From: Acanthamoeba sp. SK_2022b | Lineage: Eukaryota > Discosea > Longamoebia > Acanthamoebidae | DNA: 64,000 nt | Assembly (NCBI GenBank): GCA_027943245.1 | Contig: JANDJZ010000039.1 | Location: 1-64,000 of the forward strand | Reading direction: 5' to 3' | Part shown: positions 22,149 through 28,100 of the stretch, piece after piece | Layout of the letters: every line of letters starts with the position of its first letter | Position numbering within the stretch: position 1 is the stretch's first letter | Program-made: the position numbers and the translations under genes | Notes under the pieces: generated by a model | Seen by the model: only the letters and a program-made list of their open reading frames with translations | Told to the model about the DNA's origin: nothing | The model's database searches: none

Positions 22149-25100
22149 CAAGGACAGTTGTGAGCGTTTGGAGATAATGGGTGCACAAGGAGGAGGCGCA
22201 GTACCTCCTGCGTGCTGTTCCAGGCGCCGCCCTTCCGCTTGGCCGCCTGTAGACCGCGAGCCAGCTTGGGGATCAAGGGGTTGGAGGGGTCCACCTCCAT
22301 CAGCGCCAACATCACGATGGCGTCCACCCTGCGCGATCGATTCCCATCCATCCCAGGTCGCGTCAGATCTGCGCCGAGCCATCCCAAACGAGGACGAGGA
22401 CGAGGGGTGAGTACTTGCGGGACGAGTGAAGCACGAGGTAGTTGTAGTCGCTCGAGTAGCTCGTTGCGAAGTGCGCCTCGCTGGCCGTCTCCACCGCTAG
22501 GTTGTTGATCTCGCGCACCCGCTGTCCCACCCACCGACACGTTAGCAGCGGCCCACGTCAACTCCTCCTCCTCCTCCTTGCCCGGGGGGAACGCGTACCA
22601 GAGCAACGGGGCTGAGCGATTTGTCGGGCTTGGCCGCCTCCTCGAGCTCCATCTCCTCCGCCGGCAGCTCGGCCAGCAGGCCCTGCATATCGGCCAGCGA
22701 CTCATGAAGCTTGCTCTCCTTGTGGAAGCTGGCATCGAGCTGCGCCCCGTCCAGGTCGCTGTTGAACAGCATTTCGTTTCGCGCCTCCTCGAGCTTCTGC
22801 AGCGCCTGTTTGAGGTCGTCGATGCGCGACCGGGCCTCGGCGCGCGTGGTCGGCTTGGCCGAAGGGCGCTTCCTCTCCTCCGCGTGCACGATGGGCAGGA
22901 CCATGGCCACGGCTTCCAGGGGCACCTTGCCCAGGCCCTTGGCCAACAGGCGACCTGCGCAGGGCATGTACGTGGCCTTCTCCTGAAGCTCGCGGAACTT
23001 GTGAAGCAGGAACTGTCGCCCACCCGTGCCGAGGTCCAGGTCGTGTGAGAGGCATACTAAAAACACGCAGAGCAACTGATTCGTAGCGGTAGAAGAGCAG
23101 GACGCACCACCGCGTAGGCCTGGATGGTGTAGCGCGCGCTTGGGGGGTAGGAAGCCGGGATAGGGTGAGGCGTGACCGTTGGCTGACGGTTTCCGAAGTA
23201 TCTGCAATTTGGCGTGATCGGTTAAACAGGAACATCATGGCACGGGAGAGGGGGGAGAGGGAGAGAGAGAGAGGTGGACGGGAACCTCATTTGGGCTTGC
23301 TTGGCCTTCTCCTCTTCTTGTTTGGCGCGCCACTCCTTCTTGGTGCAGAGAAGGTTCTTTACGTAGCCCAGGGTCTTATCGACGATGCCTTGTTCGAACT
23401 GGATCCCGTGCTTCTCGACCATGAACATGGCGTGCGCCGCGTGCAGCTGTTTAAAGGCCCATCAATCGAAGCCCACACCAGTCCGCAGAACAGACACCAT
23501 CAACGCGTCACATGTCGTGAGCAATTCGACAGGAGAGTAGCACGCTTGCCTGGTGTTGGAGGTCACGTACGCTGACAAAGGGCCACGAGGGGTTCTCCTT
23601 GTCCGCCATGCCGCTGTAGTCGTACGGATCTCTCTGCTGGGGCCAGAAGCCGAAGCCGCCGTCCTTGTTCTGCATCTTGATGAGCTTCTTGGCATCCTTG
23701 ATAATGTGCTTCTTCAGGTCGAGCGCTGTCACGCCGCCAAACACATCGCGGAAGGCCTTGACGAGAGGCTCGAATGCCACGCTGCTGATGATCCTCGATG
23801 AGATCTGCTCGCTGCAGGCGTACTCGTAGGTGTAAAGGTAGTGGAAGGCGTCGGACAGGGACGTTAACATGGTCGACGAGGCGGTCACCTCGAGGCCGCC
23901 AAAGCGATCGTTGACGTTGGCCGGCGGCTTGACCAGCTGCACCAGCTTACCGCCCTCCAGCTCGCCTGGGCCAAAGAATGAGTTTCACATGTATTTTTAT
24001 AATAATAATAATAATATATGCTAATAAATAAATATAATAAATAATAACTGTACAAAAATGTAGAGAAGGGGGATACCGCAAGTGGCAAAGGTCTCTACGA
24101 CGGCGGGCTCCTTGAGTGGAATGACCACACGAGCCGCATCCGTGTCTGCGCCGAACACGACATGGCGACCGGTCACTGCCACGGCCTCCACGGTCGCTTC
24201 CTTCGCCACGATCGATGCCGCGATCGGGAACAACACCTCGGCCCTAACACCACGCAGTGAGTGCTCTGCATGCCGAGAGGAGAAGGGGGGAGCAGTAGCA
24301 TCAGCTGCTGCTCAGAGCGTCGCACCTGTTGTTGGCTTCGACGCGAACGCACTTGCCGTGGGGGCCGAGGATCTCGAGATTGTGTGCACGCAGAGCCACT
24401 CGCACGTCCACAGCCGAATCGGTCACGTTGTGGATTACAAACGATTGCGAATACTGCTCGCTCCCCACCACCAATCCCCGGCCCAATCAGCGCCCGATCT
24501 CATCTTGTGTGGACGACAGACGAGGAAGGCGGGGCACCTTGTCGCCGAGAGAGAGGAAGCGAGGAGGGGAAGGGCGCAGCATGATGGGCAAGCGCGCCGT
24601 GATCGACGACTCGGCGACTCCGAAGCGGTTGCCCTCGACGCCAATGGCCACAATGCGATACCTGTCGTAATTCAAGCATCGTTCTTAATGCCCGAGTGTT
24701 GCGTGGTGTGGTGTCGCAGGAGCTCCGAGTGGGGTACCTGGTGAGGTTATCAGGCAACGTGAAGGTGACGCGCACGACGCCAGATGAGGTGGGCGTCAGG
24801 GTGGACCGGAAGACCGCCAGAGGACGGAAGTCCTGACGCAGGTAGACGGCTTTCGCAACCATCGAGGGGTCGCCTCCGCCCCTGATTGAGCGTGCGCGGA
24901 TCAGAGTTGGAGCGAGAGAACCTCAGGAATGGCAAGAGCGCAGCCGACGCACCTCAGCCTGAGCACGAGATGAAGCGTGCTCTCGGGTTGGATGTTGTAG
25001 TCGGCCAGCGTGCACTCGTCCTCGAGCTGCTTGCCGGCAAAGATGATCCGCTGCTGGTCGGGCGGGATGCCTTCGCTATCCTGGATGGCGTTCTTCAGCT

Positions 25101-28100
25101 GCTCCAACTTCCACCAGGACGCCACCCTACCCCGCACCACCAGCACCACGTCAGCCACACCCGAGCACAATCAACCGGATCGGACGCTAGGAATGCCTGA
25201 GATGTGCGCGTATGTACCCGAGGGTGAGCGTCTTTCCGGTGAGCGTCTTGACAAAGATTTCGAAGGTGGCCATGGAGCCCTGAACTGAGGAGCGAGACGA
25301 CAGCATCTGATTCGTAGCACCAACGTTTGCCCAAAGGTGAATACACAAACTCCTCCAGTTGGCCGACCGAGCAACATCGATAAACGGTGGGGGTTAGGAA
25401 AGGCACCTTGAAGCACTTCTCCCTGGGCTCGTAGAAGGACTTGATGGGGTCCTTTACGGTGTAGTTGCCCAGGAACAGCACGCTCTCGTCCACCACATAG
25501 AACGTACACTGCGTGCCCAAGCTGCCGCCTACCGGGTTGCCGACGTGGTCGGTGATGGCCACATCCACTGTCGCCGTGGCCCTGCAATAGGGAAAGAACG
25601 AAAGCGAGGTGAGAACAATACTTTGGTATTAAAAAAAAAGATAAATTGAACGTAATAATTTAGAAAAAGAGGTAACGAACCCAGGATTGTAAACGCTGGC
25701 GCTGGGCGAGATCTTGAGATGCAGTCTGGTCTCAGTCGACAGCACGGGCAGGAACAGGCCCATGGGGCTGATGTACGGCGATGAGTCCTGGTTGGGCACC
25801 AGGTTCACCTCCACGTGCACTCCTGATCTCACACCCAGAAAAGTTCAGCTGGGTCGGGGACGCTGTGCCTTTAAGGGGGGAGGGCGTACCGGGGCAGGAG
25901 TCACGACCCAGCGGGATGGAGATGATCTGCGCAGGCGCGGTCACGGTGAACCGGGTGAGCTCCACCTTGCCGTGCTTGGACACGCTGATGAGCCCCTCGG
26001 CAGGCCACGTCGGCGAGTGGACCAACACGCGTGCGGTCTCGCCAGGGCTGTACTCCTCCTTGTCGGCCAGCAGCTTGATCTTCTTCTCGGTTGACACCTT
26101 GGAGCCGGCCGACGCGTGCGGGAAGACGATCCTGTTGAGGCCGGCGAACGCCCACACGTTTATCTCCGTGTAGTTTGCTCTTCCCTGGGCGTCCTCCTGT
26201 GTTTGGGGTACCACTGAAGGTTAAAATAAAAGAAATAATTACAACAATAATTACAAAAAAAAGTGCAAAACGTACGATGGAGGCCGAGATTAGGACGCGG
26301 TCACCCTCAAGCCATGAGCCAAAGTTGACCTCGACTCCCACCATCAGAGGCGTCCGTTGAGAAGGCGATGCTCTGCTTCAGCTTCTGACAAGTCACCTGA
26401 TCCCACCGCAGAGTCTCCTCGTTTCGAGCCCTGAATGTGTTAACACGCAACCCGTCAGGTCCAGCGCGATCAAGTGACCGCCACTCAGCATGGGTGGATC
26501 TTTCCCAGACAAAGCCCGAACCATTTCTTTTCGACGGCCTTGAGGTGGACCTTCACGCCCGGCTGCGGCAGTCCGTCGATGTCGGTCACCGTCACGAAAC
26601 ACCGAATGGCCTCACCTGAAGGATGGTAAGCGCCACATAGCAAACTCAGTCAGGCAACACAAACACCGAACCCCCCCCCAAATTGTTGGATCAGGGTGAC
26701 TCACCGGGCCCGTTGAGAACCATCGCAGCAGGTCGCAGGCCTACGTAGAGCGATGAAGGATGCAACAGGATGTTGGACGAGGCGGACAGGGACTGTCGGT
26801 TGAGGTCCTTGATGGTGGCACTCGCCGTGAGCGACACGGGCAAGGGCGTCTTGCTCGACTGGGAGCCCTTGAGCCTGAGCGCGTTGTTGGGGGTCAGTCG
26901 TACAGCCAAGAGGCGGCGATGAGATGCACATGCGCGTGACTTCATTAGCGCATTGACACGAACCTGAGTTGGTGAGTGCCATCACGCTCGGTGGCGCCCT
27001 TGTGATCGCTCACATTGTAGAAGCCCATCGAGGCATTGGCATTGAAGCTGAACCCCTCCGTGTTTGGCGGTCGATACGATGTTTGCTTCCATTTCATGTG
27101 CCAGTGGACATCGGCCCCAGGCAGCGCGCCGCCCGTGAAGTACCTGCGCCGGCCACATCTCAAGGTTAAGGCCACGCTCACGGTGTTGGCTAGTCCGAAT
27201 TGGGGAGGCAGAGGCCCAGCCGTACTTAGCTTCGGCCTGCAGATTCACGGGGTCCCCACAGATGTGCGGCCCCGCGCCCAGCACCTTGGTGGCCATCTCA
27301 AACTCGGGGTTACTACGCGACATTGAATAGGCGTCAGTCAAGAAAAGACTCACAGGATATGGGTCAGGGCATCGCCAGTACCGGAAGTTCTGGATGTCGA
27401 CGTCGATCTGATGTTCGGCGTTGAAGGAGCGGCCAGACAGGGACATCATGCGCAGCATCATTGGAGAGTAGGATCCAGCAGACTGTTGTTGTTGTTGTTG
27501 TTGTAGTTGGTTGTTGTTGTTAAAGGATCAGGTTAGCGCCCTTGCCGCACGCTGTGAGCGGGTGCGGTGGAAAGGGAGAAGGTGGATGCGACGAACGAGC
27601 TGGGTGAACTTGAGTTTCGCGACGCCGAGCCTGAAGTCATCCGGGATCTCCCAATTGAAGGAGAACGAGCCTTGGGCATCGTCGATCTTGGCCGTAACCA
27701 TCCCCACGTTCTGGTAGTGCGAGTTGGCGATCGTCATCACCACCATCCCTGCACACCAAACGCCAACAGCGCATTGGTCATCTACGCCATGCGAGAGTCC
27801 CACAAAGCGGACAGCAACTGTTTCCGGTACCTGAGGCTTTCTTGAGGTCGCCGTTCTTGGCCACCTTGCGCACCCATCCTTGGATGCGTGCAGTCTCGCC
27901 GGGACGATAGAGGCCGCGATCCGACACGACGTGGTAGGTCAGTGAGTTCTCCCTCTTGGGCCACTTGTACTGCTTGCCTTCGGCGAGGGGGCACAGGCAC
28001 GAGTCGTTGCCCTTGGTCACGTACATGACCTGCACCTCCGAAAGGTCGTACAACGTCCCTGATTGCACGTGCCGGACACAGCGTCAGGCGTGGCCGCCGA

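Follow-up and report, generated by a model that had tools for sequence, protein, structure and literature searches.

The 64,000-nucleotide stretch of Acanthamoeba sp. SK_2022b analysed here (contig JANDJZ010000039.1; hereafter the window) carries on its minus strand a macroglobulin gene whose predicted product holds a complete, 76-residue ubiquitin with half of the MG6 domain fused in frame on either side of it, at the place where solved bacterial macroglobulins carry their bait. Judged by its domains the protein is a bacterial-type, type I (thioester) alpha-2-macroglobulin with two additions, this bait ubiquitin and an N-terminal ubiquitin-like domain. On balance we favour the view that it is a probably cytosolic macroglobulin using ubiquitin as bait, which would be sprung by a deubiquitinase cutting after RLRGG and would capture that enzyme covalently. 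An earlier reading of the DNA letters (the original prediction) had proposed both a near-complete ubiquitin in the bait position and such a deubiquitinase-sprung trap. The position was borne out, and the ubiquitin proved to be complete and conserved in four amoebae; the trap gained sequence support from an invariant tail and face, decayed lysines and a plug lying past the GG, and remains a proposal. The N-terminal ubiquitin-like domain and the lack of an evident signal peptide had escaped that reading.

The bait region is laid out as follows, in the order of transcription.

25407..25581, minus strand: upstream half of MG6, an exon ending VVDESVLFLGNYTVKDPIKSFYEPREKCFK, in which A2M_BRD (PF07703) ends; weak alignment to E. 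coli YfhM up to residue 881/884.
25218..25279, minus strand: first exon of the bait ubiquitin, with ubiquitin residue 1 at 25264, from exon joining and alignment to ubiquitin.
24953..25126, minus strand: second exon of the bait ubiquitin (WKLEQ...LVLRLR), from exon joining and alignment to ubiquitin.
24872..24881, minus strand: end of R74, G75-G76 and the P1' glycine, with the predicted scissile bond at 24875/24874; RLRGG followed by G in 4/4 orthologues.
24738..24871, minus strand: downstream half of MG6, ending DFRPLAVFRSTLTPTSSGVVRVTFTLPDNLT, in which A2M (PF00207, 55.3 bits) begins; YfhM match from residue 939/942.
24827..24838, minus strand: RQDF, the BR-C/Nt-alpha' plug motif (R-x-x-F), 12 residues past the GG, placed by the position of the motif in relatives, with its role as described in PMC9156758.

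Residues 1-76 of the bait ubiquitin occupy 25264-24875 on the minus strand, and the codons of the GG and the glycine that follows it occupy 24880-24872. The domain matches the Pfam ubiquitin family (PF00240) over the whole profile (1-72 of 72; 89 bits, E 1.7e-25), and its second exon on its own was found in a raw genome search at 76 bits. It is identical to ubiquitin at 56 of 76 residues, and every residue that the original prediction had listed is present: L8, I44 and V70, K48, R72 and R74, and RLRGG followed by GDP. The profile, the I44 face and the LRLRGG tail are thus those of a ubiquitin; the chain-forming lysines are not all kept, K63 being gone from 4/4 amoebal baits and K48 from 1/4, though present in the window. 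Deubiquitinase cleavage appears to be permitted by the sequence, with glycine at P1' and L73, G75 and G76 unchanged. The borders SFYEPRE and FTLPDNLTRYR, claimed to be those of a macroglobulin, align on both sides with YfhM (5a42), the segment before the ubiquitin until residue 881 with weak support (E 0.097) and the segment after it from residue 939 (E 4.4e-7).

The same two-ubiquitin architecture was found in three further amoebal proteins, from Acanthamoeba castellanii Neff (P0121, 2,317 residues), an entry of EukProt (P0122, 2,376 residues) and Balamuthia mandrillaris (P0241, 2,383 residues); the last is labelled 'Polyubiquitin' in its source database, evidently owing to its ubiquitin domains. 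Of these three, the EukProt protein has the bait most like plain ubiquitin (67/76). A ubiquitin ahead of LPDNLT, sought among macroglobulins at large, is present in all three and was found in none of 163 non-amoebal relatives (bacterial where named), in which the stretch from VDE to LPDNLT contains no ubiquitin-like words, is variable in sequence and make-up and spans 59-177 residues (median 141), compared with 156-168 in the four amoebae. These counts cover the 163 of 191 non-amoebal relatives whose borders were recognised by pattern, the remaining 28 being excluded. Arginine and phenylalanine of the plug sit 33 residues ahead of the LPDNLT end in 158/163 of these relatives and in 4/4 amoebae, where the motif reads RQDF (window), REDF (Neff), RSNF and RSDF, that is R-x-[D/N]-F, and its arginine follows the GG by 12, 12, 13 and 10 residues. 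The counterparts of this arginine and phenylalanine in human A2ML1, Arg730 and Phe733, are described as part of a channel-plugging stretch that retracts upon bait cleavage (PMC9156758).

Ordinary macroglobulins vary in their bait regions, as the sequences of the relatives attest. The bait ubiquitin, in contrast, is better conserved than its own flanks: identity between the window and the Neff, EukProt and Balamuthia proteins is 67, 57 and 59 of 76 residues (88, 75 and 78%), against 73, 35 and 37% in the upstream flank and 78, 45 and 46% in the downstream flank. When ubiquitin itself is aligned with the four baits, 53/76 positions are invariant, and these are unevenly spread. The tail (residues 64-76) is invariant at 13/13 positions compared with 40/63 elsewhere (Fisher p 0.007), with LVLRLRGG identical in all four baits, and a set of 15 residues taken as deubiquitinase contacts is invariant at 15/15 compared with 38/61 of the others (one-sided p 0.002). 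Substitutions fall at residues 1-4, 13-33, 43, 48, 53-57 and 63. They include the lysines used in chain building, with K63 replaced by P, P, R and Q, K29 and K33 each lost in 3/4 baits and K48 replaced by I in Balamuthia; K6, K11 and K27 are retained in 4/4. With tail and hydrophobic face invariant and chain lysines decayed, what the bait preserves would seem to be a ubiquitin that a deubiquitinase can recognise and cut, rather than a K48/K63 chain builder. The derived residues VASW (17-20) are common to the Acanthamoeba and Balamuthia baits, which argues for descent with modification and not for repeated gene conversion or capture.

Exon joining gave 43 exons between 31427 and 20838 on the minus strand and a protein of ~2,300 residues. 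The 42 introns, 41 GT-AG and one GC-AG, measure 64-142 nt with a median of 84 nt. The ubiquitin region is built by joining exon 25279-25218 to 25126-24953 and then to 24881-24738. This three-exon join, on which the original prediction depended, is supported: the two ubiquitin exons together measure 236 nt, dropping both of them or the first only shifts the frame and leads to an early stop, and the identical full join occurs in the Neff, EukProt and Balamuthia proteins, the EukProt one bearing a name that begins with TRINITY, i.e. a transcript assembly. The bait ubiquitin is interrupted by an intron of its own between codons 15 and 16; a recent retro-insertion of ubiquitin was ruled out by this intron together with the derived residues common across genera. 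Near 26336 (exon 26430-26276, minus strand) the frame of an otherwise open gene appears to be broken by one base (translated as X); at this position it is unbroken in 3/3 orthologues. We take the break to be an assembly error or strain-specific damage.

The rest of the protein was delimited as follows.

20838..31427, minus strand: the entire macroglobulin gene, many of its exons individually matched by the A. castellanii Neff orthologue.
30966..31370, minus strand: N-terminal ubiquitin-like domain, residues ~20-92, in three exons, with the C terminus LRLAGL (PF00240, 48.3 bits, residues 23-92).
30532..30965, minus strand: acidic, poorly conserved linker from the N-terminal ubiquitin-like domain to the first MG-type domain (51, 16 and 22% identity to Neff, EukProt and Balamuthia).
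23805..23816, minus strand: thioester motif CSEQ at residue 1649, in the thioester domain between A2M and bMG10.
20838..21633, minus strand: exon parts of the C-terminal bMG10 (PF17973, 108.7 bits).

Pfam domains follow in the order ubiquitin, Big_5, bMG3, MG2, A2M_BRD, ubiquitin, A2M and bMG10, with PF13205, PF01835, PF07703, PF00207 and PF17973 above their curated cut-offs and bMG3 (PF11974) under its own. The thioester motif reads CSEQ, CSEQ, CSEQ and CNEQ in the four amoebae (CxEQ in 4/4) and CxEQ occurs somewhere in the sequence of 181/191 non-amoebal relatives. The protein thus has the domain series of a type I alpha-2-macroglobulin in order, the CxEQ motif, and a bait insertion in MG6 with an R-x-x-F plug. 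It departs from the type in its N terminus, which in 4/4 orthologues lacks the hydrophobic stretch that would go with secretion or a periplasmic location: the maximum hydropathy over 11 residues was 0.28-1.43 within the first 70 residues, no signal peptide being evident by this measure (no dedicated predictor was used), compared with 2.24-3.36 for the hydrophobic N termini found in 3/5 non-amoebal relatives checked. An extracellular trap, as far as hydropathy can tell, was disfavoured on these grounds. Instead of a signal peptide these proteins begin with the ubiquitin-like domain, which retains the residues equivalent to L8, I44 and V70, shares 75, 52 and 49% identity between the window and the Neff, EukProt and Balamuthia proteins, and ends in LRLAG, LRLAE, LRLSS or LRLRN, so that a GG is found in 0/4 and the domain serves as an internal control for the retention of GG in the bait. 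It is possibly a proteasome-binding domain. The lack of an evident signal peptide and the presence of this domain together suggest that the macroglobulin probably works in the cytosol (or nucleus), a compartment unusual for the family.

Acanthamoeba and Balamuthia both belong to the Centramoebida. The four amoebal proteins form a single group (Shimodaira-Hasegawa-like approximate likelihood ratio test, SH-aLRT, 100), and closest to them stands a protein from a deltaproteobacterium (support 92), in a quick tree of 72 sequences (the four amoebal ones and 68 of the 191 others) in which long branches were flagged for the EukProt and Balamuthia proteins. A single descent from a gene of bacteria, into which domains were inserted later, is the simplest account. 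A search with the region after the bait returned 1,673 proteins, and of the 120 listed two were amoebal and carried PF00240, the other 118 lacking it (bacterial where named); over this region the Neff protein is 74% identical to that of the window. The Balamuthia protein was outside these 120 and appeared in another search, so further orthologues may have been missed. In a second search for relatives, three of 76 proteins carried PF00240 (Neff, EukProt and Balamuthia) and 73 did not. A search with the C-terminal half including the ubiquitin gave 3,378 proteins, the 120 listed all being ubiquitin-worded and none macroglobulin-like. Two long macroglobulins met on the way (P0253 and P0260; 2,475 and 2,866 residues) have N-terminal leucine-rich repeats and lack CxEQ.

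Within the amoeba's own genome, macroglobulin exons matched the Neff protein only on this contig and ordinary polyubiquitin matched elsewhere (best 20 of 75 candidates); at this depth the gene is likely to be single copy. Searches of the genome by domain family missed it, probably on account of the shortness of its exons. Another contig of the assembly (C309, 433 kb) carries at 209302-210156 an intronless, bacterial-type macroglobulin of 1,995 codons, for which a search of the E. coli collection gave no match; this contig is probably bacterial, from a contaminant or symbiont, and its macroglobulin was not accepted as a paralogue. Adjacent to the ubiquitin-bearing gene, at ~31620-33950 of the window on the minus strand, lies what we take to be an acyl-CoA synthetase of the 4-coumarate-CoA ligase type, its frames showing YSSGTT and LPKGVMLTHRN.

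The sequence of events that we envisage begins with a deubiquitinase, an enzyme recognising folded ubiquitin, which would bind the bait and cut after Gly76. This would let the R-x-[D/N]-F plug withdraw from its channel and the thioester domain swing outward, and the exposed Cys-Gln thioester would acylate the closest nucleophile, which would most likely belong to the deubiquitinase that made the cut; a handover to the proteasome, or to some other receptor for ubiquitin, may follow through the N-terminal ubiquitin-like domain. Release of the plug followed by exposure of the thioester is the mechanism described for the A2M family (PMC9156758), and an E. coli macroglobulin with swapped bait sites is reported to capture the cognate protease (PMC9918453). 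The plug just downstream of the GG, the invariant tail and face and the decay of the lysines all strengthen the case for a deubiquitinase as the trigger. Such a trap would likely serve to defend the amoeba against the deubiquitinases that intracellular microbes possess. Amoebophilus asiaticus, which lives in Acanthamoeba, is described as having two predicted ubiquitin-specific proteases, one of them raised early in infection (PMC8831229), and Simkania as having numerous deubiquitinases, transcripts of which were found in Acanthamoeba (PMC10643670). The latter source calls enzymes specific for linear ubiquitin hard to explain for non-animal hosts. The bait is an instance of ubiquitin in peptide linkage within an amoeba; since Gly, and no second ubiquitin, follows the bond, an enzyme strictly specific for linear chains might leave it uncut.

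Several points weigh against a deubiquitinase-sprung trap. Natural ubiquitin precursors are reported to be cut quickly by host enzymes, probably co-translationally (PMC8122580), and the bait has no sequence change at L73, G75 or G76 that would block host cleavage; the amoeba might therefore spring the trap itself, unless the native trap shields its bait. The probably intracellular site, where host deubiquitinases are abundant, cuts both ways. The absence of a signal peptide is a judgement from hydropathy, the orthologues number four, two of them from Acanthamoeba, and the annotated Neff model is without some segments present in the others. The retained K6, K11 and K27 make it possible that some chain building remains. 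Finally, the frame permits one variant that would lack the second exon of the bait ubiquitin (174 nt), since this exon can be skipped alone with the frame kept.

Because host enzymes cut ubiquitin precursors so fast, the main rival is constitutive processing, in which a host deubiquitinase would always cut after RLRGG to give a two-chain macroglobulin, the ubiquitin being a processing or folding-helper element and the trigger lying elsewhere. An invariant bait tail and ubiquitin face would be expected here too, ubiquitin-ribosomal protein precursors are processed rapidly (PMC8122580), and C3-type proteins are likewise cut into chains as they mature, by furin (PMC9156758). Yet the predicted cut lies C-terminal to the inserted domain and 10-13 residues ahead of the plug, which in the A2M family is described as the activating side (PMC9156758), and a constitutive cut is expected to spend the thioester, whose CxEQ is nevertheless conserved in 4/4; we regard such a maturation site as unlikely. 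The presence of two ubiquitin-type domains in 4/4 orthologues suggests another role, that of delivery: any cytosolic protease might cut the linkers flanking the ubiquitin, both domains then routing the loaded trap to the proteasome, p97 or autophagy receptors with no need for a cut at GG. The retained hydrophobic face, K6, K11 and K27, and the variable length of the linker upstream of the bait ubiquitin agree with this. A pure binding tag, however, need not retain its GG, as the N-terminal domain of the same proteins has not, and K63 is gone from 4/4 baits and K48 from 1/4, making a delivery tag quite improbable in our view.

That the ubiquitin is a roleless cassette, or a pseudogene in an intron turned into a domain by the gene model, would be in keeping with the frame break near 26336, with the commonness of ubiquitin sequences in the genome (67 matches) and with the frame-preserving skip of the second exon. 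It is already contradicted by the loss of frame when both exons, or the first, are skipped, by the presence of the domain in Neff, in Balamuthia and in the protein from a transcriptome, by the stronger constraint on the ubiquitin than on its flanks, and by the shared VASW, a mark of descent and not of repeated capture; passive insertion or artefact is accordingly very hard to credit.

The original prediction knew of no described macroglobulin with a ubiquitin bait, and none was found in the open-access literature searched, which takes in neither most subscription papers nor bioRxiv preprints. The orthologue sequences are already in databases, under generic or misleading names; what is new in this member of the A2M/C3 family is its bait, its terminal domain and, probably, its compartment. 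If a deubiquitinase does spring it, the protein would be a natural activity-based trap for deubiquitinases; among protein inhibitors that bind these enzymes covalently, we know of none that is set off by the catalysis of its target, a class at which no search of ours was aimed. The alpha-2-macroglobulin and complement principle would then reach beyond the extracellular space into the cytosol of a unicellular eukaryote, an 'integrated decoy', i.e. a host target built into an immune protein, would exist independently of animals, and the finding would bear on why some amoeba-grown bacteria carry many deubiquitinases.

Among known systems the closest are the bacterial type I macroglobulins (E. coli YfhM/ECAM, Salmonella Sa-A2M; COG2373), which share Big_5/bMG, MG2, BRD and A2M domains, a thioester domain with CxEQ, bMG10 and the plug, and beside which the amoebal sequence groups in the tree. 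The PDB name of YfhM describes it as a lipoprotein and bacterial baits are variable sequence without a recognised domain, whereas the amoebal protein has no evident signal peptide, a ubiquitin-like domain at its N terminus, ubiquitin as bait and an intron-rich eukaryotic gene. With ubiquitin-ribosomal protein and polyubiquitin precursors it shares a ubiquitin followed by a peptide extension, RLRGG being followed by a further residue, but its ubiquitin is internal to a chain of 2,300 residues and has lost several lysines. Complement C3, C4 and C5 offer a parallel in which a folded domain, the anaphylatoxin, takes the place of the MG6 bait, with cleavage at the C-terminal end of that domain, and its release exposes the thioester; there the anaphylatoxin is freed by a second (furin) site and acts as a signal (PMC9156758). 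In the amoebal protein the domain is ubiquitin and would remain on the N-terminal chain, and neither an anaphylatoxin nor an NTR/C345C domain is among its Pfam matches at E <= 0.001.

A second amoebal macroglobulin with an inserted domain is described by Elias and Novotna (PMC2430557): Dictyostelium CPRas2, a COG2373 protein of 3,933 residues with a circularly permuted RAS GTPase at 2844-3013 between macroglobulin blocks, given as EAL60755.1, an accession that the same paper uses for another protein too. Its inserted domain is a GTPase and not ubiquitin, but 920 residues separate the end of the RAS domain from the C terminus, compared with 844-888 from the bait ubiquitin in the four amoebal proteins. 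By this residue arithmetic the RAS domain plausibly occupies the same bait slot, hinting at a wider class of amoebal decoy baits; CPRas2 itself was absent from the 76 proteins that the second search for relatives gave. More tentatively, and with some doubt, these parallels could be drawn together into a cytosolic complement-like system of amoebae in which ubiquitin is the integrated decoy and a microbial deubiquitinase acts as the 'convertase' and is covalently tagged; the freed N-terminal chain of ~155 kDa would end in a native ubiquitin C terminus that is in principle E1-activatable and conjugable to the invader, the N-terminal ubiquitin-like domain would call the proteasome, and CPRas2 would be a second decoy with a RAS bait. 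The nearest engineered counterparts are the A2Mcap macroglobulins, in which a bait swap is reported to retarget covalent capture to a chosen protease (PMC9918453); their baits are man-made short peptides, whereas the amoebal protein would present a natural, folded substrate domain.

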